From positions 1-64,000 of the forward strand of contig CAJQKQ010000005.1 in the NCBI GenBank assembly GCA_905478925.1: a stretch of DNA of 64,000 nt. Direction: 5' to 3'. This DNA comes from an uncultured Verrucomicrobiales bacterium (GTDB lineage: Bacteria; Verrucomicrobiota; Verrucomicrobiia; Verrucomicrobiales; Akkermansiaceae). The translations under genes were made by a program, and so were the position numbers. Below, in pieces: positions 1-50,768 of the stretch. Position 1 is the first letter of the stretch, and each line of letters starts with the position of its first letter. The notes beneath the pieces were generated by a model. That model was not told the DNA's origin. It made no database searches and was given only the letters and a program-made list of their open reading frames with translations.

Positions 1-936
1 ACTCCGTGCCCGGACTTCCGTAGCTTCCCGAGAGTGTGTCGATCATAATAGGTGAGATGTTTGTATCTGGTGGTCATTGTGTTTGATTGTCTTCGGTGCG
101 GTGTTGCACTTCGATTTTCAAATCACACTTCGGGGGTTGGATTGTCAGAATGGGGGCATGAAGGGGAAAAAGCGCTGGATTGCACCGTGGGCGGATTCGG
201 AGGAAAAGCCATCGATCTACCATTGTGTGTCGAGGGTTGTGGATAGGCGGTTTGTGTTTGGCGATGAGGAGCGAGAGAAGTTCCGGATGTTCATGCGGAT
301 GATGGAGAATTTCAGTGGTTGCCGGGTGCTTTCCTACTGCGTGATGTCCAACCATTTCCACATTCTCCTTGAGGTTCCGGCAATGCCTGCGGGTGGTTTG
401 AGCGATGCGGAGTTGCTGCGGAGGTTGGGGGTTTTCTATGGGGAAAACTTCGTGAAATCCGTAGGAGACGAGCTGCTTGCGGCAAGGTCGGAGGGTGGGG
501 TGAAAGGCGGAAACCCGGAACGGGTGGCGGAGATCCACGGGCGTTTTAGCAATGCGGATGCATGATCTGAGCGACTTCATGAAAACGCTGCTCCAGAGAT
601 TTACCCGCTGGTTCAACCGCACGCACGAGCGGACGGGAACTCTTTGGGAGAACCGTTTCAAGAGCGTGATCGTGGAGAGCGGGACTGCAGCGCGGATGAT
701 GGCGGCTTACATCGATCTCAATCCAGTGCGGGCGGGGATGGTGGATGATCCGGCGGAGTATCGCTGGAGCAGCTACGGGGAGGCGGTTGGTGGCGGGAAC
801 AAAGGGAACGGTAAGAAGGCGCGGGAGGGGCTGGTGCGGGCGATTTCCTCCGACACGGATACAGGGTTTGATGCGGGGAAGTGGAAGGAGGTCTCTCGGC
901 GGTACCGCAGGTTGATGGGGCTGGCGCTGGCGAGGA

Positions 937-6870: not shown

Positions 6871-6876
6871 GCTTTT

Positions 6877-6911
6877 AAATTCTAAATTTTAAGTTATAAA
6901 TCCGAAACCTT
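6877..6911. repeat. Heptad-repeat tract, leuC-leuD spacer
   Basis: Plus-strand heptamers AAATTCT, AAATTTT, AAGTTAT, AAATCCG, AAACCTT in exact 7-nt register. The tract covers the spacer between leuC and leuD and ends 6 bp from the leuD ATG. It overlaps the leuC stop codon. In the mRNA it reads as T-rich NNNNTTT units. Confidence 0.85.
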
Positions 6912-8334: not shown

Positions 8335-8387
8335 GATACTTGCCGCCGTGGTTCGCGGCGGGGCGGGAAGATGGATAGGGGACGGGG

Positions 8388-8415
8388 AAACTTCAACTCT
8401 CAAAACTCAAATTCC
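8388..8415. repeat. Heptad-repeat tract upstream of leuC
   Basis: AAACTTC, AACTCTC, AAAACTC, AAATTCC in register, about 55 bp upstream of the leuC ATG (minus strand). Confidence 0.75.
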
Positions 8416-8459
8416 ATGGCGGGTGGGATGGGGCGTTATTGGGGGGCGGCTTTGATTTT

Positions 8460-8563
8460 TATCGGAGGAGACGGAGGGAAGAGGGAGGTGACGGAGAAGG
8501 TTTTGGAATCCAAACCGAGAATTACTCCGTTACCTCTGTCATCTCCGCTTCCTCCGTTTAGGG
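8460..8563. repeat. Long imperfect inverted repeat, purine-rich arm
   Basis: A purine-rich arm of about 38 nt beginning ATCGGAGGAGACGGAGGG (from 8461) is followed after about 20 nt by a pyrimidine-rich arm ACTCCGTTACCTCTG to CTTCCTCCGTTT (8523-8560). The reverse complement of the second arm tracks the first with scattered mismatches, so a long RNA stem can form in either transcript. Confidence 0.65.
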
Positions 8564-8614
8564 GAAATACCGGATTTTGTGTCCGGATTGTGCAAATCGG
8601 CAGCTTGATGATGG

Positions 8615-8649
8615 GATTTTTGAGATTTGAATTTTGCAGTTTGGATTTT
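8615..8649. repeat. Heptad-repeat tract upstream of holA
   Basis: Five plus-strand heptamers GATTTTT, GAGATTT, GAATTTT, GCAGTTT, GGATTTT. G and TTT recur exactly every seven bases. Ends 17 bp before the holA GTG. This is the reverse-complement version of the AAANNNN tracts, so it has the same sense orientation relative to its gene. Confidence 0.85.
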
Positions 8650-8666
8650 CTCGCTAGACCTCTCCT

Positions 8667-19001: not shown

Positions 19002-19015
19002 GATGGCGCGACGTT

Positions 19016-19057
19016 AAACTTCAAATCTCAAAATTCAAACTCCAATGAAGAAATTTC
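19016..19057. repeat. Heptad-repeat tract upstream of DUF5069 gene
   Basis: Six units in register: AAACTTC, AAATCTC, AAAATTC, AAACTCC, AATGAAG, AAATTTC. Begins 15 bp upstream of the ATG at 19001 (minus strand). One of the longest in the window. Confidence 0.85.
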
Positions 19058-19067
19058 TCAGCGGATT

Positions 19068-19236
19068 GATCACAAGCGGCACAAGCAAGAGCGTGGTTCG
19101 GACTTCGTAGTTTTTTTCTGAAAATAGAAACAATAAGACCCGTATTTAAGATGTCCAAAAACGCTCCAACTAAGAATTCGCGAGAGTGATTCCGGAGAGC
19201 TTGAACCAAAATCCCCCTTGTGCCCCTTGTGTAGGA
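19068..19236. repeat. Inverted pair of 9-nt-period repeats
   Basis: The arm at 19068-19097 (CACAAG twice, 9 nt apart, then GAGCGTGGTT) is matched inversely by 19207-19236, whose reverse complement contains CACAAGGGGCACAAGGGG and ends TTTTGGTT. The arms are separated by about 110 nt. A single related copy, GACAAGGGGCACAAAG, occurs at 56408-56423. Confidence 0.55.
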
Positions 19237-19311
19237 TTCTTCCTCTTTCCCTGAAGCGCATCCCTTGTTTCTGCTTGCGGGGCGGGGCGGGGTGGGTTTT
19301 CCTGCCGCCTC

Positions 19312-20452
19312 ATGTCTTTACTCCCTACCGCTGACCTCCTGGCGCTCGATACGGATGGCTTTTCCAGCCGTCTTTCGAAACTCAGGGGGTATCTTTGACG
19401 TCCCTGTTTTAGAAAACAAGATCCAGACGCTAGAGGAAGCGATGGGCGCCCCGGATTTCTGGGACGATACGGACAAAGCCCGCACCGTTTCCGAGGATGC
19501 GGCAGGAATGAAAAAGAAACTCGAAGCCTTTACCGATCTGGAAAGCCGCAGCAAGGACGTCATCGAAGGCGTGGCACTGGCGAAGGAATTCGACGACGAG
19601 GAACTCGCCAAAGAAGCGATCGACGGCGCAGCCAAGCTCGAAAAAGACATCCGCCAATTCGAACTCCTGACCCTTCTGAACCGACCCAACGACGAGGCCT
19701 CCTGTTACCTCGCCATCCAGGCGGGCGCCGGCGGCACCGAAGCCTGCGACTGGGCGCAGATGCTTCACCGCATGTACACCCGCTGGGCGGAGAGCAAGGG
19801 ATTCAAAGTCGAAACCCTCGACTGGGAAGACGGCGATGGTGCCGGCCTCCGCTCCGCCACGGTCAAAATTATTGGCGAGAACGCCTTCGGTTTCCTCAAG
19901 AACGAACGCGGCGTCCACCGCCTTGTCCGCATCTCACCATTCGACTCCGCAGGCAAACGCCACACCTCCTTCGCTTCGATCGACGCCACTCCGGAAGTGA
20001 ACGATAAGATCGAGATTGAGATTGCCGATAAGGACGTGGAGATTAGCACCATGCGCTCCGGCGGCAAAGGCGGCCAGAACGTCAACAAGGTCGAGACCGC
20101 AGTGCTGCTACGGCACCTTCCTTCCGGGATACTGATCAAGTCCACCGCCTCCCGCACGCAAGGCGCGAACAAGATACTCGCCTTCCAAATCCTCAAAGCG
20201 AAACTCTTCCAGATTGAGGAAGATAAACGCGCCGCCGATGCCGAAGCCGTCTACGGCGAAAAGAGCGATGTCTCATGGGGAAGCCAGATCCGTTCCTACG
20301 TGTTCCAGCCCTATCAAAAAGTCCTCGACCTCCGCACCGGCGAGGAAAGCGGCAGCATCCAGGACGTTATGGATGGAGATATTGACGCCTTCATCGAGGC
20401 CAAGCTCAGAGGAAAAGTCCGAGTGAAGGGCGTGAAGGACGATGAGGATTGA
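19312..20452 (+). CDS. prfB: Peptide chain release factor 2 with programmed +1 frameshift
   Basis: Class I release factor recognising UGA and UAA. The gene starts at ATG 19312 ([13 protein letters not shown]), reads 28 codons to AGG GGG TAT CTT, and meets an in-frame TGA at 19396-19398. A +1 shift on CTT TGA C continues as [17 protein letters not shown] to the stop at 20452. The internal Shine-Dalgarno-like AGGGGG three bases before CTT is the classical stimulator. Codon recognition SPF ([13 protein letters not shown]) and catalytic GGQ ([13 protein letters not shown]) are present. The coding join is 19312-19395 plus 19397-20452. Confidence 0.97.
19384..19399 (+). promoter_or_regulatory. prfB programmed frameshift site
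   Basis: AGGGGGTATCTTTGAC: internal SD-like AGGGGG, slippery CTT, stop TGA, then C. It senses RF2 level: low RF2 leaves the ribosome paused at UGA and favours slipping. Confidence 0.97.
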
Positions 20453-33475: not shown

Positions 33476-33516
33476 GAAGTTGTGACGGTGATGAGAACTA
33501 GCGGGGATGGGGGGGA

Positions 33517-33551
33517 GTGACAAGTGCCGGGTGCCGAGTGATCAGTGGTAG
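33517..33551. repeat. Heptad-repeat tract, GTGNNNN type
   Basis: GTGACAA, GTGCCGG, GTGCCGA, GTGATCA, GTGGTAG in perfect register, in the spacer between the DUF2071 gene and the BatA-like gene. GTGATCA and GTGCCGA recur in the tract upstream of DUF2071. Confidence 0.85.
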
Positions 33552-34403: not shown

Positions 34404-34444
34404 TAGTTTTCAGTTTGAAGGCTAGGTTGATGGAGAGTTTGCTA

Positions 34445-34472
34445 GTGCCGAGTGATCAGTGATCAGTGGGAA
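34445..34472. repeat. Heptad-repeat tract upstream of DUF2071 gene
   Basis: GTGCCGA, GTGATCA, GTGATCA, GTGGGAA in register, about 41 bp upstream of the ATG at 34403. In the mRNA it reads NNNNCAC. Confidence 0.85.
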
Positions 34473-42629: not shown

Positions 42630-44330
42630 TCAGGGAGCCACGGCGGCTTTCACGCCCTGGATGATGATCTGCAGGCTGGTTTTTCCGCGGTAGGTATTGC
42701 GGTCGATGGTGAAAGCGATATCCCACGGCGGCTCGGGAAGTTCATGCTCTCCGCCGCCGAAGAAAACAGCATCCTGCTCATGGTATCCTTGGCGGAGCAT
42801 CAGGCGGAGATGGTTGTTCTTCATATGGAAAGGCGGGCGGCTGAGCCCGACATTCCGTGAAACGAATACCGGCTGCGGGTTGGCGTTTCCGAAGGGTTGC
42901 AGTAGCTCGTAGCTGGCCAGGAAATCGAGGGAGAGCTGTGAAAAACCGATCTCGGCGTCATAAATGAGACGCGGGCGGCGATCTTCCTCGGAGGTGTTGG
43001 CTAGCACGTATTCGGCGAAGTTCGCGCGGAAGCGATCCATGTTTTTCTCGCGGATCGAAAGTCCGGCGGCCATGGCATGCCCGCCACCGGCGATGAGGTC
43101 GCCCTCGCAGGCGCGGATGGCATCGACCAGTGAGACTCCCTCGATGCTCCTGCCGGATCCTTTTCCGACGCCCTCGGCGTCGATCGCGATGACGAATGTG
43201 GGCTTGTGGTATTGCCGCATCAGGCGCGAGGCGACGATGCCGACCACGCCGTGGTGCCATGAGCGAGATCCGATCACGATGACCGGATCTTTCGCAGGGT
43301 CGAAGCCGCCGGAGAGCTGTTCGGTGGCTTCCCTGCGGATCAGGCTTTCGTGTTCTTGGCGCTGGCGGTTGTAGCGATCGAGTTTCTTCGCAAGTTCCTC
43401 GGCGGATCTGCGGCAGTCCGTGTTGAGTGTGGCCAGGGCGTCCTCGGGGAAATCCATGCGGCCTGCGGCGTTGATGCGCGGGCCGATGCGGAAACCGACA
43501 TCCATGGATGTCGCGGTGCCGTTCATTCCCGTGATTTCCTGGAGAGCCCTCAGGCCGGGGTTTAGCGTTTTGGGAAGAGCCTTGAGTCCGTGGCGGACGA
43601 GCAGGCGGTTCTCGTCGATAAGTGGCACGATGTCCGCGACCGTGGCGACTGCGACGAGATCGAGGAGTTCTTTGAGATCCAACGCGGCGGGACGAGCTTT
43701 CAGGAGGGCGTGTCCGACCTTGAAAACCACCCCGGCGGCGCAGAGGTAGGTGAAATCTTTCCCGCATTTCGGGTTTACCAGCGCCGTGCAATTCGGTCTT
43801 CCTTCGGGATCCGGCTCATGATGGTCGACGATGATCACATCGATTCCCATTTCCCGCAGGTGGGCGACCTCTTTGACGGAGACGGTGCCGCAATCGACTG
43901 AGATTAGGAGATCGGGTTTCTCTCCCTCGGAAAGGCAGCGCTCGATTGCGGCGATGCTGATTCCGTATCCCTCCGCACCCCGGCGAGGGATGAACGGCCT
44001 CGGCTCCAACCCGTAGGCGTGGAGGATTTTCGACATCAGGGTGACCGAGGAGACCCCGTCGACATCGTAGTCGCCGTAAATGCAGACTTTTTCCTGTGAG
44101 TCGACAGCCTTGAGAATGCGCTCGACGGCCGGATGCATGTCGGGAATCAGGAACGGATCGCTGAGATCTTTCAGCTTCGGGCGGAGGAAGGATTCCATCG
44201 CCTCGCCCTCGGGAATTCCCCGCTGGCTGACGAGATGTCGCAGGATTTCAGGGAAGCTTTCGTCGGGGGGGTGCGAGCCCGGGATGAAGGGCTCGCCGCG
44301 TTGGATCCATCGGAAAGCCGTTGCGCTCAT
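42630..44330 (-). CDS. recJ: Single-stranded-DNA-specific exonuclease RecJ
   Basis: 5'-3' single-strand exonuclease of the DHH superfamily, used in recombination and mismatch repair. 566 residues. Motifs: IYGDYDVDGVSSVTLMSKIL, VDCGTVSVKEV, the DHH triad in IIVDHHEPDPEG, and NAAGRMDFPEDALATL. Start at ATG 44330; an in-frame start at 44351 is not conserved. The MITE-like copy B occupies its upstream region, with its end 45 bp from the ATG. Confidence 0.95.
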   Translation of the reverse strand: MSATAFRWIQRGEPFIPGSHPPDESFPEILRHLVSQRGIPEGEAMESFLRPKLKDLSDPFLIPDMHPAVERILKAVDSQEKVCIYGDYDVDGVSSVTLMSKILHAYGLEPRPFIPRRGAEGYGISIAAIERCLSEGEKPDLLISVDCGTVSVKEVAHLREMGIDVIIVDHHEPDPEGRPNCTALVNPKCGKDFTYLCAAGVVFKVGHALLKARPAALDLKELLDLVAVATVADIVPLIDENRLLVRHGLKALPKTLNPGLRALQEITGMNGTATSMDVGFRIGPRINAAGRMDFPEDALATLNTDCRRSAEELAKKLDRYNRQRQEHESLIRREATEQLSGGFDPAKDPVIVIGSRSWHHGVVGIVASRLMRQYHKPTFVIAIDAEGVGKGSGRSIEGVSLVDAIRACEGDLIAGGGHAMAAGLSIREKNMDRFRANFAEYVLANTSEEDRRPRLIYDAEIGFSQLSLDFLASYELLQPFGNANPQPVFVSRNVGLSRPPFHMKNNHLRLMLRQGYHEQDAVFFGGGEHELPEPPWDIAFTIDRNTYRGKTSLQIIIQGVKAAVAP

Positions 44331-44375
44331 AGTGATGCAAAGAACCTGCACCGCACCGTGCGGTGAGACAAGGGC

Positions 44376-44630
44376 GGGTGTGATTTTTATCGGTGTATTT
44401 GCCTGACGCAGCCCAAGCCATTCAATATTGGTAGGGATGATCCGGCTCGGTCAGCCCTGATCAAAAACGCAAGCGCCGTATCCCCGGAAAGGGAGTGAAC
44501 CGATGGCAAGACACCGCATTTCTCCCGAGTTCTCACTTCCGTGTGGGTGAGGCGGGCTGCCAGATTTTTGAAGTGGGCTGACCGAGCCGGATCAGCCCTA
44601 CCGGGTGAAACACCGATAAAAATCACACCC
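44376..44630 (-). mobile_element. MITE-like element, copy B (inverted)
   Basis: 255 bp. Terminal inverted repeats GGGTGTGATTTTTATCGGTGT at 44376-44396 and ACACCGATAAAAATCACACCC at 44610-44630, a perfect 21-bp match. Direct repeats GACAAGGGC (44367-44375) and GACAAGGGT (44631-44639) match at 8 of 9 bases. Interior is the reverse complement of copy A. Begins 29 bp after the nuoK stop and lies upstream of recJ. Confidence 0.92.
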
Positions 44631-44659
44631 GACAAGGGTGGAAGCCCATATCGGAGGGT

Positions 44660-44980
44660 TCAGCCCTTCAGCGAGACCAGTTCATCGGTGTGGATGGTCT
44701 GGCGGGCGCGGTAGAGGGCGACGATGATCGCGAGGCCGACGGCGACCTCGGCGGCGGCAACCGTGATGACGAAGAAGACCAGCATCTGGCCATCGTAGTC
44801 GGGGAGGTCGTTGGCGGTGACCTTGAAGCGGGAGAAGGCGACCAGGGTGAGGTTCGCGGCGGAGAGCATGAGCTCCAGGCACATGAAGACGATGATGATG
44901 TTGCGGCGGAGCACGACGCCGGCGAGGCCGATGGAGAACAGGAGGCCGGAGACGAGGAGGTAGTCGTTGAGCGCTGGCAT
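44660..44980 (-). CDS. nuoK: NADH-quinone oxidoreductase subunit K
   Basis: Small membrane subunit of complex I. 106 residues with three membrane helices; the conserved glutamate lies in [20 protein letters not shown]. The last nuo gene here: nuoL, nuoM and nuoN, which usually follow, are missing, and a MITE-like element and recJ come next. The start codon is preceded by a heptad tract rather than a Shine-Dalgarno sequence. Confidence 0.96.
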
Positions 44981-44981
44981 G

Positions 44982-45016
44982 AAATTTGAAACTTTAAATT
45001 CTAAACCCTAAGGAAG
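44982..45016. repeat. Heptad-repeat tract upstream of nuoK
   Basis: AAATTTG, AAACTTT, AAATTCT, AAACCCT, AAGGAAG in exact register, from 2 bp upstream of the nuoK ATG almost to the nuoJ stop codon. Confidence 0.9.
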
Positions 45017-45018
45017 AT

Positions 45019-45585
45019 TTAGTTCGTTTGGCGTTTGGAGAGGACGACTACGCCGACGGTGGCGACGAGGAGGAGGATCCCGAGTATCTGGAGGGGGAGG
45101 TTGTATTGGGTGAAGAGTGTCTCACCGATGAGGTGGACATCGGGGAGCTTGCCGTTGGTGAGGGCTTCGTTGATCTTGGAGCCTTCGGGGTAGTCACCGG
45201 CAGCAGCGGCGAGGGTGGCTTTGTCGAGAATGGGTGCGCTCTGGTTTGGCAGTTTGTTGGAAAGGACGCCGATGAGTTGGATGAAAAAGATGCCGACGAG
45301 TGAGAGACCTGCCACCAGCGGTAGGTAGCTTTCGGTGCGGCGTTTCTCATCCTTGAGGTCGAGGAGCATGATGATGAAGAGGAACAGCACCATGATCGCG
45401 CCGGAGTAGACAAGGATCTGGATGACGCCGACGAAGAAGGCGGAGAGGCCGATGAAGAGCGCGGCGAGGCCGACGAAGGAGGTCACCATCGCAAGTGCGC
45501 TGGAGACGGGATTGCGGAAGGCGATGACCGCGCACGCTCCGATGAGCATGATGGTGGCAAACAACCAAAATAAATAGGAAGGCAT
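45019..45585 (-). CDS. nuoJ: NADH-quinone oxidoreductase subunit J
   Basis: Membrane subunit of complex I, 188 residues with five predicted helices. Features include the N-terminal LFWLFATIMLIGACAVIAFR and the conserved pi-bulge region VQILVYSGAIMVLFLFIIML. It lies between nuoI and nuoK in the usual order. The gap to nuoI is filled by a five-unit heptad tract. Confidence 0.95.
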   Translation of the reverse strand: MPSYLFWLFATIMLIGACAVIAFRNPVSSALAMVTSFVGLAALFIGLSAFFVGVIQILVYSGAIMVLFLFIIMLLDLKDEKRRTESYLPLVAGLSLVGIFFIQLIGVLSNKLPNQSAPILDKATLAAAAGDYPEGSKINEALTNGKLPDVHLIGETLFTQYNLPLQILGILLLVATVGVVVLSKRQTN

Positions 45586-45591
45586 CAGGTG

Positions 45592-45626
45592 AAATTCTAA
45601 ATCTTAAATTCTAAATCTGAAACGAA
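45592..45626. repeat. Heptad-repeat tract upstream of nuoJ
   Basis: AAATTCT, AAATCTT, AAATTCT, AAATCTG, AAACGAA: perfect AAANNNN register. Ends 6 bp from the nuoJ ATG and fills the nuoI-nuoJ spacer. Confidence 0.9.
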
Positions 45627-45628
45627 GA

Positions 45629-46195
45629 CTATTTCAGTTCGTTCCATTTGTTGACGAGTCCGACGCGGACGCCGCCGATTTCGTAGAGTTTTTTCTTATC
45701 GTGAACCATTTCGGCGCGGGAGGTGCCGGTGATGAGGTAGTCTTTTCGGAGGTAGATGGCCTGCTCGGGGCAGACTTCCTCACACATGCCGCAGTAGATG
45801 CAGCGTGTCATGTCGATGTCGAATTCAAAGGGGCGTTTCTCTACCTTTGCCCACTTGTCGTCGGAGGGGATTTCCGAAGGGATGATTTTGATCGCCTTTG
45901 GCGGGCAGATGAATTCGCAGAGCTGGCAGGAGACGCAGCGTTCGCGGCCCTGCTCATCGGTGACGAGGGTGGGCGCGCCGCGGTAGTATTCCGGCATGTG
46001 GTCGTCCCAGCGTTGCTCCGGGAACTGCATGGTCACGCCGAGGCCGGAGGAGGCGAGGCCTTCCGCTCCGTAGGACTTGCCGCGCAGGGATTTCACCGCG
46101 TGCATCATCGTGAGGAAAAATCCCTTGATGAGTGCGCCGAAGTAGATTTTTTCTCCTACGTTGAGTTTCGGTCGGGTGAGCTTGATGGTGGGCAT
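45629..46195 (-). CDS. nuoI: NADH-quinone oxidoreductase subunit I
   Basis: Peripheral-arm subunit with two [4Fe-4S] clusters (N6a and N6b). Both ferredoxin motifs are present: CVSCQLCEFICPPKAIKI and CIYCGMCEEVCPEQAIYL. 188 residues. Conserved N-terminal segment GEKIYFGALIKGFFLTMMHA. It lies between nuoH and nuoJ. Confidence 0.97.
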   Translation of the reverse strand: MPTIKLTRPKLNVGEKIYFGALIKGFFLTMMHAVKSLRGKSYGAEGLASSGLGVTMQFPEQRWDDHMPEYYRGAPTLVTDEQGRERCVSCQLCEFICPPKAIKIIPSEIPSDDKWAKVEKRPFEFDIDMTRCIYCGMCEEVCPEQAIYLRKDYLITGTSRAEMVHDKKKLYEIGGVRVGLVNKWNELK

Positions 46196-46215
46196 TTGAA
46201 GAAAGTTTGCTGGTT

Positions 46216-46236
46216 TTCAGTGTTCAGTTTTCAGGG
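46216..46236. repeat. Heptad-repeat tract upstream of nuoI
   Basis: TTTTCAG, TGTTCAG, TTTTCAG on the plus strand, three units in register, 20 bp from the ATG; in the mRNA CTGAAMA units. Shorter than the other nuo tracts and with a different fixed part. Confidence 0.65.
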
Positions 46237-46248
46237 CAGAAACTGAAC

Positions 46249-47520
46249 TTATGCGCGGAGCACTTTTGCGGGTGGTTCGGAGACCTTGGCGACCCAGATG
46301 ATGGCAGCTGTGACCACGGCGAGGAGGATGAGGCCTATCACGGTGATGGTGGAGGCCATGCCGGGGGCGGCGATGATGAGTGCGGCGAGGAAGACATTGA
46401 TGAGTGCGGCCTCGAAGAAGATGACCCAGCCGAGTTTCATGAGTTGGTCGTAGCGGAAGCGGGGAACCGTCCAACGGACGAGGATGAAGAACAGGATGAA
46501 GACGAGGAGTTTGGTGAGGAAGATGCCGACGTGGATGAAACCGCCGATGCGGAAGTCGCCGATGGAGAAATTCGCGATCGCTTCGTCGAAGCCGAAGCCA
46601 GCGGACCAGCCGCCGAGGAAGAGTGTGATGATGAGGGCGGAGCCGATGACCATTGCGGCATATTCGCCCATGAAGAACATCGCGAATTTCATCGAGGAGT
46701 ATTCCGTGTGGTAGCCGCCGACGAGTTCCGTTTCACACTCCGGGAGATCGAAGGGCATGCGGTTGGTTTCGGCGAAGATCGATACCGTAAAGATGATGAA
46801 CGCGATAAACGCGGGGATCATGAAAAGCGTGGTCTGCAGGCTGGGGAGAGAGAGTTTCCCATCCGTCCAGAACGGCAGCAGCAGCCAGCCGTTGTCCGCC
46901 TGTTCCTGGACGATGTTGTTGAGGTTGAGATCACCGAAATAGAGCAGGACAGGGATGACTGAAAGGCCGAGGCAGATCTCGTAGGAAATCATCTGCGCGG
47001 TGGAGCGGACGCCGCCGATGAACGGGAATTTGGAATTCGAGGACCAGCCAGCGAGGGTGATGCCGTAGACCGTGAGCGATGAGATTGCGAAGATGAACAG
47101 CGGCCCGACATCGAGATCCGCAATGACGAGTTTTTCGGTGCGGCCGAACAGGGTTACATCCGGCCCGAAGGGGACGACGCAGACGGTGATGAGCGCGGGG
47201 ACGACGGTGAGCACCGGGGCGAGCCAGTAGAAGGCCTTGCGGACGTGATCCGGGGTGAAATCCTCTTTAAGGAACAGTTTCAGGCCGTCGGCGATCGGCT
47301 GGACGAGGCCGAAGAGGTGAAAATCCTTTTTCGCGCCGAAAAGGGTGAGCGGAATGCCGACCCGGTTCGGGCCGACGCGATCCTGGATGATTGCGGAGAA
47401 CCTGCGTTCGAAATAGACGGAAAGCGGCACCAGCGGCAGGACCACCATAAAGGTGAACGCGACGATTTTCGTTATGATGATCGCAAGATCGATGAGGGTT
47501 GCGGTGACTACTTCGGGCAT
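46249..47520 (-). CDS. nuoH: NADH-quinone oxidoreductase subunit H
   Basis: Quinone-site membrane subunit of complex I. 423 residues with about nine to eleven helices. Family motifs: ERRFSAIIQDRVGPNRVG, LKLFLKEDFTP, GWSSNSKFPFIGGVRSTAQM and FAETNRMPFDLPECETELVGG. Slightly longer than the E. coli protein at the C-terminus. The start lies directly after a TAACNNN heptad tract that fills the nuoG-nuoH gap. Confidence 0.96.
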   Translation of the reverse strand: MPEVVTATLIDLAIIITKIVAFTFMVVLPLVPLSVYFERRFSAIIQDRVGPNRVGIPLTLFGAKKDFHLFGLVQPIADGLKLFLKEDFTPDHVRKAFYWLAPVLTVVPALITVCVVPFGPDVTLFGRTEKLVIADLDVGPLFIFAISSLTVYGITLAGWSSNSKFPFIGGVRSTAQMISYEICLGLSVIPVLLYFGDLNLNNIVQEQADNGWLLLPFWTDGKLSLPSLQTTLFMIPAFIAFIIFTVSIFAETNRMPFDLPECETELVGGYHTEYSSMKFAMFFMGEYAAMVIGSALIITLFLGGWSAGFGFDEAIANFSIGDFRIGGFIHVGIFLTKLLVFILFFILVRWTVPRFRYDQLMKLGWVIFFEAALINVFLAALIIAAPGMASTITVIGLILLAVVTAAIIWVAKVSEPPAKVLRA

Positions 47521-47531
47521 ATTCTTCCTAA

Positions 47532-47559
47532 TAACAATTAACCAATAACTTCTAACGAA
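47532..47559. repeat. Heptad-repeat tract, nuoG-nuoH spacer
   Basis: TAACAAT, TAACCAA, TAACTTC, TAACGAA: four perfect units with four fixed bases, ending at the nuoG stop and 12 bp upstream of the nuoH ATG. The fixed part differs from the AAANNNN tracts ahead of nuoJ and nuoK. Confidence 0.9.
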
Positions 47560-49317
47560 TTATCCGTTGATGATCCCGGCGGCGGCGCGGGCGCGTTCGT
47601 TCGTGAGGAGGGGGATCTGGTAGCCGGTTTCGGTGACGACCGTGCCGAGGTGGCCGATCTTGGAGAGGGTGAGGCCTTCGAATGCGGGAGTCGAGGCGGC
47701 GACCTTTTTGAAGAGGTCTTCGATGAGGAAAATGTCCGGCTTGTTTCCAGAAACGGCGGCGGCGAGATCTCGGAGGATTTCCCAGTCGTCGCGGCACTGT
47801 CCCTGGGGCTCGACGGCGCGGTTGAGGCGCTGGAGGCGGCCGGTAAGGTTGACCATGGATCCGCGTTTCTCAGTAAAGGCGGCTCCGGGAAGGACAACGT
47901 CGCTGGCCTCGGCGGTGGCGCCGGCGAGGAGTTGGACGGAGGCGATGAATTCGGGTTTGGCCAGGTCTTCGGTGGTGAAGCCGGCCTCGGCGGTGAGGTC
48001 TTCGCCGAGGACGAGCAGGGCTTTGATGGAGCCGTTGCGGACGCCTTCGCGGATTGCGGAGAGAGAAGCGGACGGATCGGAGGAGTTCCAGACGAGTTTC
48101 GCGCCGGTGGTGTTCGGGTTGCGGTCGGCGGCGATGAGCAGGCCGTCGTTTTCACCCTCGCGAGGGACGGTGGCGAACTGATCTGTCTTGAGTTCGCCGG
48201 CGAGCGCGCGGACGAGGAAGAGCTCTTCGTTGGTCATCCGTGCCGAAGCGATGATGGCGATTTTCGAAGGGTCGAATTGCGACAGGGCTTCGGCGGTTTT
48301 CGCGATGGCTTCCGGCCAAGCGGCAGGGCGATGTGTTGCGTCTTCCTTGATTAGGACGTCGGTGAGGCGGGAGTCGCCGTCGATGTAGTGAAAATTGAGG
48401 CGGTGTGAATCGGGCATCCAGTTCGAGTTCACCTCGTCATTCTGACGCGGAGTGATGCGGTGGATCGTGTCGCCACGGGTGTGGATGACGATGTTGGTGC
48501 CGGTGCCGCAGTTCACGTCGATGGACGGAGTTTCCTTGAGGAACCAGACACGCATCTGGAAGCGGAAGTCGTTCGAGGTGAGCGCGCCGACCGGGCAGAT
48601 ATCGGCAGTGTTGAGCGAGTAGTTGTTGTCCAGGAGTCGCCCTGGATGGACGGTGAGGGTGGTGTGAGTGCCACGCTGGGTGAAGCCGAGTACCGGATCC
48701 CCAGCGACCTCGTCCATGAAACGGATGCAGCGGGAGCACATGATGCAGCGCTCGTCGTCGAGGCGGATGCGTGGGCCGATATCGACGTTTTTCGGTTTCT
48801 TTACCTTCATGTCGACGAAGCGCGAGACGCCACGGCCGAAGCCGACGGATTGCTCCTGGAGTCGGCATTCGCCGGCCTGATCGCAGATTGGGCAATCGAG
48901 AGGGTGGTTGATGAGGAGAAACTCCATCACGCCCTCGCGACATTTCTCGACGAGTTCGCCAGTGGTGCGGATCCCCATGTTTTCCGCGATGCTGTTGGCG
49001 CAGGAAATGGCAGGTCGGGGCATCCAGCCGATGGTCTGGTAGCCGTTTTCGTCGTAAGTGGGATCCTGTCCGGGTGCCAGGCGCGGTGGCATTCCCATCT
49101 GGATAAGGCACATCCGGCAGTTACCAGGGACGGTCAGCTTGGGATGGTAGCAGTAGTAGGGGACATCGACCTTGGCCTTGCGGCAGGCCTCGATCATCCG
49201 AGTGCCTTTGGGGAATTGGTGCCAGATACCGTCGATCTGCACATTCACCATGCCCTTCTCGGCTGCGATGTCCTTGGGTAGTTTGAGTTCCGCTGTGGCC
49301 GGAGAGGTGTCGCTCAT
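47560..49317 (-). CDS. nuoG: NADH-quinone oxidoreductase subunit G
   Basis: Peripheral-arm subunit with several iron-sulfur clusters. The N-terminal [2Fe-2S] ligands lie in DVPYYCYHPKLTVPG and CRMCLIQMG, then CPICDQAGECRLQEQSVGFG and CIMCSRCIRFMDEVAG. The C-terminal molybdopterin-type domain is present but reduced. Start at ATG 49317 (MSDTSPATAELKLPKD), 585 residues; the frame continues to 49392 but that part is not family-like. It is the first nuo gene here; nuoA-F must lie elsewhere. A CRP/FNR-type palindrome is 80 bp upstream. Confidence 0.95.
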   Translation of the reverse strand: MSDTSPATAELKLPKDIAAEKGMVNVQIDGIWHQFPKGTRMIEACRKAKVDVPYYCYHPKLTVPGNCRMCLIQMGMPPRLAPGQDPTYDENGYQTIGWMPRPAISCANSIAENMGIRTTGELVEKCREGVMEFLLINHPLDCPICDQAGECRLQEQSVGFGRGVSRFVDMKVKKPKNVDIGPRIRLDDERCIMCSRCIRFMDEVAGDPVLGFTQRGTHTTLTVHPGRLLDNNYSLNTADICPVGALTSNDFRFQMRVWFLKETPSIDVNCGTGTNIVIHTRGDTIHRITPRQNDEVNSNWMPDSHRLNFHYIDGDSRLTDVLIKEDATHRPAAWPEAIAKTAEALSQFDPSKIAIIASARMTNEELFLVRALAGELKTDQFATVPREGENDGLLIAADRNPNTTGAKLVWNSSDPSASLSAIREGVRNGSIKALLVLGEDLTAEAGFTTEDLAKPEFIASVQLLAGATAEASDVVLPGAAFTEKRGSMVNLTGRLQRLNRAVEPQGQCRDDWEILRDLAAAVSGNKPDIFLIEDLFKKVAASTPAFEGLTLSKIGHLGTVVTETGYQIPLLTNERARAAAGIING

Positions 49318-49397
49318 GACTGGAAAATGGGAGGCAAATTCAATGGCCGGAAGGCCTGCGCGGACTATGTCGGCGCTCGGGCGGCGCGGCAAGTGTG

Positions 49398-49419
49398 CTT
49401 TGTGAAATTTTTCACAAAG
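49398..49419. promoter_or_regulatory. CRP/FNR-family-type operator palindrome between nuoG and tlyA
   Basis: TGTGA-AATTTT-TCACA is an exact match to the CRP consensus TGTGA-N6-TCACA, within a longer palindrome of 10 of 11 pairs (CTTTGTGAAAT and TTTTCACAAAG). It is 80 bp upstream of nuoG (minus strand) and 91 bp upstream of tlyA (plus strand), so either could be controlled. The binding protein is inferred. Confidence 0.65.
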
Positions 49420-49509
49420 TCCGGTTTTCGGTGTTTTCAGGTATTATTCCGCCGAGATTGCTGGATTCCGTGATGGTGCGGTGCGGTGCGGTGCCCTAGA
49501 ACGTGCGGC

Positions 49510-50262
49510 GTGAGGAAAGACCGACTGGATGCCCTGCTTTTCAACCGCGAGATGTGTGATTCCCGTGAGCAGGGGAAGCGGCTGGTTCTGGCCGGGGAGG
49601 TGAAGGTCGACGGGCACGTGTGCGACAAGCCCGCCGAGCGCTTCGGCGAAGATGCGGTTGTGGAGATACGGGAAAAACCCCGGTTCGTCGGCCGGGGTGG
49701 TCTGAAACTCGAGGGCGCGCTGATCCATTTCGGGATCGATGTGACGGGATGGACCTGCGTCGATGTCGGTGCTTCGACGGGTGGCTTCACCGACTGCCTG
49801 TTGCAGCGCGGGGCGACGAAAGTGCATGCGATCGATGTCGGGACGAACCAGCTTGTCTGGAAACTCAGGAGCGATCCACGGGTGGTGGCACGGGAAAAGT
49901 TCAATGCGCGTCACATGGAAGTGGGCGATCTGGGCGAAAAAGTGAGGCTGGCGGTGATGGATCTTTCCTTTATCTCGCTGACCAAGGTGCTGCCTGCCGT
50001 GTTCAGAGTTCTCGAAGCGGGTGGAGAGGTGGTTTGCCTGATTAAGCCTCAGTTTGAGTTGGAGCGAGAGGACGTCGGAAAAGGCGGAATTGTGCGGGAC
50101 GAGGCTCTGCGAGAGCGTGCGGTCAGTAAAATTCGCCGGTTTGTAACCGAACAACATGGGGCGGAATGGCGTGGAGTGGTTCCTGCTAGTATTTCCGGGA
50201 TGGACGGGAATCAGGAATATCTGGCCTGGATCGGCACGGATTATTCCGAAAAAATCGAATAA
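49510..50262 (+). CDS. tlyA: TlyA-family rRNA methyltransferase (hemolysin A-like)
   Basis: S4 domain plus FtsJ-type methyltransferase fold. RKDRLDALLF, SREQGKRLVLAGEVKVDG and CDKPAERFGEDAVVEI form the S4 part; TCVDVGASTGGFTDCLLQRGA is the SAM-binding motif and MDLSFISLTKVLP the catalytic-side strand. Known members 2'-O-methylate 16S and 23S rRNA. I chose the GTG at 49510 (MRKDRLDALLF); a GTG at 49486 would add eight residues. Divergent from nuoG. Confidence 0.92.
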   Translation: MRKDRLDALLFNREMCDSREQGKRLVLAGEVKVDGHVCDKPAERFGEDAVVEIREKPRFVGRGGLKLEGALIHFGIDVTGWTCVDVGASTGGFTDCLLQRGATKVHAIDVGTNQLVWKLRSDPRVVAREKFNARHMEVGDLGEKVRLAVMDLSFISLTKVLPAVFRVLEAGGEVVCLIKPQFELEREDVGKGGIVRDEALRERAVSKIRRFVTEQHGAEWRGVVPASISGMDGNQEYLAWIGTDYSEKIE

Positions 50263-50345: not shown

Positions 50346-50768
50346 ATGAAACTACTACTAACAGCGTTCTGCGCAGTAATGATCACGTCACCTCTGGCCT
50401 TTGCCGGCGACAAGTGCGAAAAGAAGAAGTGCGATAAGGAGAAGGAAGAGGCCACCATGCTCGCTGGAAAAGACTGCGACAAAAAGAAGAAGTGCGATAA
50501 GGAGAAGGAAGAGGCCACCATGCTCGCTGGAAAAGACTGCGACAAAAAGAAGAAGTGCGACAAGGAGAAGGAAGAGGCCACGATGATTGCTCATTGCGGC
50601 AAATGCGGCAAATGCAACAAAGGCAAAGACGGAGCCAAGTGCGACAAGTGCAAGAAAGCCGGTGAAAAAAAGAAAAAGGAAAAGGAGGGCACCATGCTCG
50701 CTGGTAAGAAGTGCGACAAGAAGAAGTGCGATAAGGACAAGGACAAGGAAGAGGCAACTCTCGCTTGA
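50346..50768 (+). CDS. Secreted Lys/Cys-rich repeat protein
   Basis: 140 residues, no family recognised. A signal peptide (MKLLLTAFCAVMITSPLAFA) is followed by three copies of a 21-residue unit built as CDKEKEEATMLAGKDC then DKKKK, and by a CGKCGKCNKGKDGAKCDKCKK cluster of the same composition. The tail has a further related copy. CxxC spacing suggests metal or disulfide chemistry and the charge suggests polyanion or nucleic-acid binding; both are inference. A strong terminator follows 33 bp later, so it is a defined single-gene unit. The 63-nt repeat is nearly identical at DNA level, so copy number can change by slippage. Confidence 0.75.
   Translation: MKLLLTAFCAVMITSPLAFAGDKCEKKKCDKEKEEATMLAGKDCDKKKKCDKEKEEATMLAGKDCDKKKKCDKEKEEATMIAHCGKCGKCNKGKDGAKCDKCKKAGEKKKKEKEGTMLAGKKCDKKKCDKDKDKEEATLA
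50429..50617 (+). repeat. 63-bp tandem repeat in the Lys/Cys-rich gene
   Basis: GTGCGATAAGG recurs at 50429 and 50492, and GTGCGACAAGG at 50555, each 63 bp apart. Copies one and two are nearly identical; the third diverges after the first 30 bp. The unit equals 21 codons, so the frame is kept. Confidence 0.9.

Follow-up and report, generated by a model that had tools for sequence, protein, structure and literature searches.

Tracts of heptanucleotide units fill the spacers upstream of nuoK, nuoJ, nuoI and nuoH in the genome of an uncultured Verrucomicrobiales bacterium (Akkermansiaceae). Such period-7 tracts are real, general far beyond the nuo operon and only partly explained. The stretch analysed, hereafter the window, comprises positions 1 to 64,000 of contig CAJQKQ010000005.1 (assembly GCA_905478925.1). 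The source genome, labelled G000, is a 3.8 Mb draft in 145 contigs, and its closest relatives by NuoH are metagenome-assembled genomes (MAGs) labelled Verrucomicrobiaceae, Akkermansiaceae, Luteolibacter and Prosthecobacter. Until now, intergenic heptamer repeats had been described as single words from scattered bacteria. Here the word changes even between adjacent spacers of one essential operon while the period stays constant, and therefore the question "why seven" can be separated from the question "which letters". Tentatively, the four tracts are placed in a large class of degenerate heptad arrays that are rapidly rewritten and are either tolerated or used as open leaders and mismatched hairpins. 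They point to a widespread, unexplained kind of DNA between genes in the host, its relatives and phage-like sequences.

Heptad tracts of the nuo operon

The genes are arranged in the order nuoG-nuoH-nuoI-nuoJ-nuoK on the minus strand, and each was confirmed by NCBIfam: nuoG, the upstream gene of the set, at 47560–49392 (NuoG, E = 8e-139), nuoH at 46249–47520 (NuoH, E = 1e-108), nuoI at 45629–46195 (NCBIfam/TIGR01971 NuoI, E = 2.5e-30), nuoJ at 45019–45585 (NuoJ, E = 5e-34) and nuoK at 44660–44980 (NuoK, E = 5e-35). The preliminary description, made from the letters of the window, had reported short runs of heptamers in strict register before four of these genes. All four are present on the minus strand. 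Lag-7 scores were compared with 5000 dinucleotide shuffles of each spacer, and lag 7 was the best of the lags 4 to 12 in every case.

Tract 1 (44981–45011), immediately upstream of nuoK, is a single arm of family F1 with a fixed TTT (score 12, 0/5000 shuffles). On the coding strand it reads TTAGGG-TTTAGAA-TTTAAAG-TTTCAAA-TTTC, followed by ATG, and on the plus strand AAATTTG/AAACTTT/AAATTCT/AAACCCT. It is preceded by GGAAGA (45012–45017, plus strand; TCTTCC on the coding strand), the head motif that marks the gene-distal end of F1 arrays in the consensus of 59 matches, CTCTTCC-TTAGGG-TTTAGAA-TTTAAAA-TTTAAAA-TTT. Tract 2 (45592–45616), before nuoJ, also belongs to F1 (score 10, p = 0.0010) and reads ATTTAGA-ATTTAAG-ATTTAGA-ATTT on the coding strand (AAATTCT/AAATCTT/AAATTCT/AAAT on the plus strand). 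The tracts of nuoJ and nuoK thus form one family, with 82–96% identity to many other spacers genome-wide.

Tract 3 (46213–46234), before nuoI, represents family F3 (score 11, p = 0.0006), and the same element occurs in many relatives. Its coding strand is CTGAAAA-CTGAACA-CTGAAAA-C (TTTTCAG/TGTTCAG/TTTTCAG on the plus strand). Tract 4 (47532–47556), before nuoH, is of the stop-side (5′ arm) type (score 8, p = 0.0054), with GTTAGAA-GTTATTG-GTTAATT-GTTA on the coding strand and TAACAAT/TAACCAA/TAACTTC/TAAC on the plus strand. A search of positions 44000–50000 against Rfam gave nothing above the gathering score.

Period 7 in the genome, the phylum and viral contigs

Genome stretches totalling 760 kb, picked irrespective of matches, served as an unbiased sample, and match-bearing stretches were sampled separately. 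Genes were called with a simple custom script, so spacer edges are approximate. In the unbiased sample, a lag-7 score of at least 9 was reached by 23 of 231 co-directional spacers (shuffles 1.1), by 1 of 55 convergent spacers (shuffles 0.1) and by 4 of 62 divergent spacers (shuffles 0.5). The lags 4–6 and 8–13 gave 0–6 co-directional spacers each, and only lags 7, 14 and 21 stood out. The preliminary description had staked its claim on lag-7 periodicity being more frequent before genes than in shuffled sequence; the counts at lag 7 and at the other lags therefore speak for it. A genome-wide class with varied fixed words, as it had supposed, is borne out by the same excess together with the many unit families described below.

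The step is specific. Three-unit TAAC arrays numbered 112 at period 7, against 0, 0, 3 and 0 at periods 5, 6, 8 and 9. In 356 kb of coding sequence of the relative G004, no lag-7 tract scoring at least 12 was found; lags 6 and 9 do occur there, as codon structure predicts.

Four successive TAACNNN units were found in 50 of 73 genus genomes and in 65 of 289 genomes sampled across the phylum; set at period 8, the identical word occurred in 2 of the 73. Four ACTGNNN units were present in 30 of the 73 genus genomes; among 145 genomes from the whole phylum, 6 contain TTTARRR arrays. When IMG/VR was scanned for CACTGAT arrays, 39 stretches were retrieved. In these contigs, selected for one array, 84 of 128 non-redundant co-directional spacers carry tracts. 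Four of the contigs were examined for gene content: genes for phage heads or tails are present in L277, L289 and L268, with pairs of arrays in the spacers that separate them, and L301 gave no family match. In those contigs of the set (L266–L304) that have phage head and tail genes, e.g., at L277 144–8600 and L289 1540–10443, most spacers are long paired arrays. The layout of a pair in phage contigs is (CAGT-NNN)n, a AAAGGCAAA-like loop and (ACTG-NNN)n, often followed by a Shine-Dalgarno (SD) word and a start codon.

Turnover at orthologous nuo spacers

The nuo spacers of about 90 relatives contain arrays of various families, are short and array-free, or give way to gene overlaps. Orthologous spacers keep period 7 while the unit changes, a pattern for which the preliminary description had proposed to look. 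The closest informative comparison is that of the nuo regions L061 and L265 (G008), in which nuoI differs at 11 of 567 and nuoJ at 12 of 594 positions (98% identical). Between these two genes, one region has a 37-nt F1 array and the other an 87-nt GTTA/TAAC pair, a 50-nt difference produced by a family swap. The spacers before nuoI have their first 18 nt in common and then continue with CCAATAT units in one region and ACCGATC units in the other. The nuoG-H spacers differ by 49 nt, i.e., by seven units of seven, and the nuoJ-K spacers are identical. Before nuoK, lengths of 31 and 38 nt were seen, again a 7-nt step. Arrays are gained, lost, swapped between families and shifted in length in 7-nt steps much faster than the flanking genes change. 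Extra predicted genes lie between nuoH and nuoI in L265 (3312–3866 and 3973–4128), as in some relatives.

The suggestion that the tracts are sites of a modular RNA-binding protein of the TRAP type finds no support in this comparison. TRAP-like arrays present one short word across the targets of a regulon. The word here differs among the four nuo spacers, even adjacent ones, and among relatives; it is swapped even where nuoI and nuoJ are 98% identical, and in many relatives the corresponding spacer has no array.

Unit structure

An array comprises 3–5 units, up to nine or more, at an exact 7-nt step, and each unit consists of a contiguous fixed block of about 3–4 nt and a contiguous variable block. 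The circular lag-1 autocorrelation of column variability was 0.089, against a null value of −0.166 (standard deviation (sd) 0.036; 0/2000 permutations). In an independent set of viral contigs it was 0.100 against −0.166 (sd 0.043). The division of the unit into fixed and variable parts, noted in the preliminary description, is thus statistically real in two independent samples. Tracts contain 3.29 invariant columns on average, against 2.99 (sd 0.06) in a simulation of uniform decay. A count of distinct letters per column, set against the same uniform decay, detected no fixed columns; this test is underpowered, because the contiguity statistic reversed its outcome.

The families include TTT-NNNN (F1), CACT-NNN or ACTG-NNN (F2) and CTGA-NNN (F3), and further TAAC-NNN, CAAT-NNN, CTGTCTT and ACTTCCG. 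A TCTTCC-like head, at the end far from the gene, is common to F1, F2 and F3 arrays. A heptad family of the TTCGACG/TTCGATG kind was seen at L229 2502–2618, in the divergent spacer adjoining a Y1_Tnp locus. The arrays were also considered as three-frame stop cassettes, and many units do hold a stop codon. This reading is not general, because the CTGTCTT and ACTTCCG families have none on either strand.

These data bear on the simplest explanation of the tracts, namely that they are plain heptanucleotide microsatellites of the kind known as short tandemly repeated repetitive (STRR) sequences or long simple sequence repeats (LSSR), which would expand by polymerase slippage, lose their regularity through mutation and last only in intergenic DNA. 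Such repeats would account for the 7-nt length steps between L061 and L265 and before nuoK as well as for the lack of tracts in the coding sequence of G004, and in many prokaryotes no class of long repeats is more abundant than heptanucleotides (Mrazek 2007, as cited elsewhere). The explanation is weakened by the block structure and by the surplus of invariant columns over uniform decay, and it does not predict the gene-end preference, fixed polarity and inverted pairs described in the next section; we regard it as improbable. The likeness to STRR drawn in the preliminary description was nevertheless the better half of its interpretation, compared with the TRAP-type protein sites: the length steps are seen, whereas slippage followed by uniform decay gives no fixed and variable blocks.

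Position, polarity and inverted pairs

The arrays are tied to gene ends. Of 84 tracts in spacers at least 80 nt long, 54 lie at most 15 nt from the end of a gene, against 26 expected, and 48 of 92 tracts in co-directional spacers end at most 8 nt from a start. Of 40 F1 elements near starts, 39 have their heptad end directed toward the gene. The corresponding count near stops is 10 of 16, and the other F1 elements there may belong to short spacers that bring the next start nearby as well.

After stop codons, the reverse complement of the array is placed, so that a two-arm spacer has the order stop, reverse array, loop, array, start. Arms of the same family (score 12 or more) share a spacer in 28 of 112 cases, against 9.4 when arms are re-paired. 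The reverse-then-forward order was found 42:0 in viral contigs and, at other loci, 7:0 for TAAC, 3:0 for CACT and 2:0 for CTGA (12:0 jointly). For the TTTA pattern, the order of pairs is not clear (1:2). Non-heptadic inverted repeats line spacers of G000 too, and the lining of spacers by inverted repeats is therefore not confined to heptads. Dispersed inverted repeats of the repetitive extragenic palindromic (REP) type, of the GGAGCGCGGCTTTTCAAGCCGC kind, occupy other spacers of this genome (L170, L129, L122, L124 and L188).

The inverted copies of one family per spacer and their constant order would be expected of selected intercistronic hairpins, in which stop-side and start-side arrays would pair and couple the translation of neighbouring genes or set mRNA processing, single arms being decayed or one-sided. 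When the nuoI-J spacers of eight species are folded to a consensus, the fixed GTTA/TAAC blocks pair heptad after heptad, and five pairs are changed on both sides. Pairing of the fixed blocks is expected in any case, because the arms are inverted copies of one family. In a test of base-level covariation, a spacer's own arms pair no better than same-family arms taken from other species, and a test of the nine-pair inner helix gave no excess over shuffles. The arrays of the window, moreover, are mostly single and unpaired. In viral contigs, complementarity between variable triplets is lower for a spacer's own arms than for re-dealt arms (0.582 vs. 0.659, sd 0.024), which hints at an avoidance of perfect hairpins; the hint is provisional, as the contigs are mutually related. 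On balance, hairpins selected for their pairing are an improbable explanation.

Translation starts and candidate proteins

In co-directional spacers of 25 nt or more in G000, SD words precede 6% of starts, and among starts that follow an array the count is 0/36. The preliminary description had noted that only nuoH has an SD-like sequence. The word TTCTTCC (47522–47528, plus strand; GGAAGAA on the coding strand, read from the sequence) indeed adjoins the nuoH start, and it equals a motif found at the inner end of other arrays of several families. The absence of SD words is not special to the other tract genes but is the rule genome-wide, and a replacement of the SD as a particular trait of genes with tracts was rejected, since other starts seldom have an SD word either. 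A survey (PMC10783764) classes Verrucomicrobiae such as Akkermansia as SD-scarce. A 16S gene, the source of the anti-SD sequence, was not detected in this MAG. Start regions after tracts have a minimum free energy of −3.2 kcal/mol, compared with −6.8 kcal/mol elsewhere, and lie 1.4 kcal/mol above composition-matched shuffles. This weak folding fits an open leader.

Cold-shock proteins were tried as binders of one heptamer each. The cold-shock domain PF00313 was detected in none of the G000 sequences and in 2 of 73 genus genomes, with 9 of 14 control genomes positive, and this candidate was rejected because such proteins are nearly absent from the genus. In a broader form, the arrays may be binding sites for a protein with a 7-nt pitch, whether a modular RNA-binding protein, an S1- or cold-shock-like protein with an oligonucleotide/oligosaccharide-binding (OB) fold or an IHF/HU-like DNA-binding protein, with the fixed block as the contact. 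A strict period with a contiguous fixed block, adjoining starts, is what such a protein would call for. Proteins of this sort have been put forward elsewhere: S1, Csp or Csr for TAACTGA heptamers, citing heptamer binding by CspB with weak specificity (MacGregor 2015, PMC4679880), and IHF/HU for the paired arrays of Geobacter (Aklujkar 2009, PMC2700814). On the other hand, neighbouring spacers have different fixed words, the word is swapped even where operons are nearly identical, reverse complements follow stop codons, orthologous spacers are often array-free, and the cold-shock domain is as scarce as stated above. Binding by a 7-nt-pitch protein is unlikely.

A further possibility is that the arrays are short mobile elements, similar to REP or to miniature inverted-repeat transposable elements (MITE), spread by an encoded enzyme such as a REP-associated Y1 transposase. 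The dispersal of the copies, and the head motif and polarity that they share, would agree with this, as would the true REP-like inverted repeats that line other spacers and the fifteen Y1_Tnp matches in G000, one of them near the start of the window (215–379). The spacers beside the best Y1_Tnp genes examined contain REP-like repeats, and only one array, of the TTCGAAC kind, was found in a neighbouring spacer. Y1 transposases were provisionally rejected as movers of the arrays, which were not found flanking the Y1_Tnp genes examined. No target-site duplication or pair of filled and empty sites was demonstrated, and the many unrelated unit families would each need an element of their own. Mobility of this kind is very doubtful.

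Interpretation

Of the readings considered, the one to which we incline, still with reserve, is that of a rapidly rewritten class of degenerate arrays. We infer that the arrays could be written by repeat copying in 7-nt steps, in which slippage or template switching would re-anneal on the fixed block. Their persistence might be explained if tandem copies of a word that is not self-complementary form an open leader at SD-free starts, and if paired arrays fold into a mismatched hairpin.

Several points weigh against this. The writing process was not observed, and slippage alone does not explain the wholesale family swaps or the common TCTTCC head. The evidence of turnover comes from one close pair of nuo regions, L061 and L265, whose nuoH and nuoK genes are 6–7% different, so that homologous import of the swapped spacers is possible. 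Any direct repeat might, as a side effect, give the low structure seen at starts. Arrays are also found after stop codons and in convergent and divergent spacers, and are thus not leaders there. Finally, arrays are sparse in some relatives (5 of 117 spacers in G004), and any benefit is therefore not general.

A bolder proposal is that heptad arrays, each unit with its fixed block and a block left free to vary, are written into the spacers beside gene ends in both host and phage by an enzyme or a replication pathway dedicated to this task, and that the arrays would act as generic cistron separators through the 7-nt beat and imperfect pairing of the arms, not through their sequence. We consider this improbable as well. 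Whether a polymerase, a binding protein or an mRNA structure sets the 7-nt beat becomes testable, and dense test material is offered by the viral contigs, where roughly two in three sampled spacers are arrays.

Other tracts and repeats in the window

Further tracts were found elsewhere in the window. An F1 tract lies at 6873–6899 (minus strand, lag-7 score 12) in the co-directional spacer 6871–6909. The divergent spacer 8335–8666 contains paired tracts at 8393–8411 (score 8) and 8619–8649 (score 12), both on the plus strand, and the divergent spacer 19002–19354 contains an F1-like tract at 19011–19045 (plus strand, score 12). Family F2 is represented by a CACT-NNN tract at 33516–33547 (score 11) and a CACTGAT tract at 34444–34468 (score 12), both on the minus strand. 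At 50412–50749, 63- and 15-nt tandem repeats of the AAGTGCGAAAAGAAG kind are located inside an open reading frame, the product of which may be a repeat protein.

Comparison with known systems

No description of such arrays in Verrucomicrobia was found in the literature searched, with subscription journals largely outside its coverage; the word Verrucomicrobia has no match in the text of MacGregor 2015. The closest precedents are the TAACTGA repeats of that study and, in Geobacter metallireducens, the paired arrays reported by Aklujkar 2009.

TAACTGA direct repeats occur in Beggiatoaceae, Cyanobacteria and Bacteroidetes. Like the present tracts, they are heptamer direct repeats, mostly intergenic, placed a few nucleotides from the starts of SD-free genes and subject to 7-nt indels between close strains. 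TAACTGA itself is present here, as a TATCAGT array in the nuoI-J spacers of L046 and L247 and as TAACTGA units in G177 and G241. In Beggiatoaceae, however, the repeat is one exact heptamer, and related heptamers are rarely or never directly repeated, whereas here there are many families per genome, units with fixed and variable blocks, and inverted pairs lining the spacers.

The "global regulator binding sites" of G. metallireducens are paired; class 3 has five tandem MTYCTGA units, and classes 1 and 2 have other units. They resemble the arrays described here in their tandem units with ambiguous positions, opposite-strand pairs, variable loop, multiple copies and mostly intergenic location, although many arrays here are unpaired. 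Geobacter has few classes, with 16–48 sites in one genome, partly of period 8 and with no turnover reported. In our data the period is 7 throughout, the families are many, and the arrays are patchy across the phylum and dense in viral contigs.

With the STRR and LSSR of cyanobacteria and other prokaryotes, the tracts share a tandem 7-nt unit, an intergenic location and length steps of seven. Those repeats are near-exact, whereas here the variation is confined to a contiguous block and is accompanied by gene-end polarity and inverted pairs. REP sequences and bacterial interspersed mosaic elements (BIME) are likewise dispersed intergenic elements with inverted pairs between co-directional genes. 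A REP is a single imperfect palindrome, in contrast to the direct repeats of a heptad array, and the REP-like elements of this genome form a separate class. The present data add to these precedents the division of the unit into fixed and variable blocks, the multitude of families, a period that stays constant at orthologous spacers while the words change, the polarity at gene ends and the density in viral contigs.

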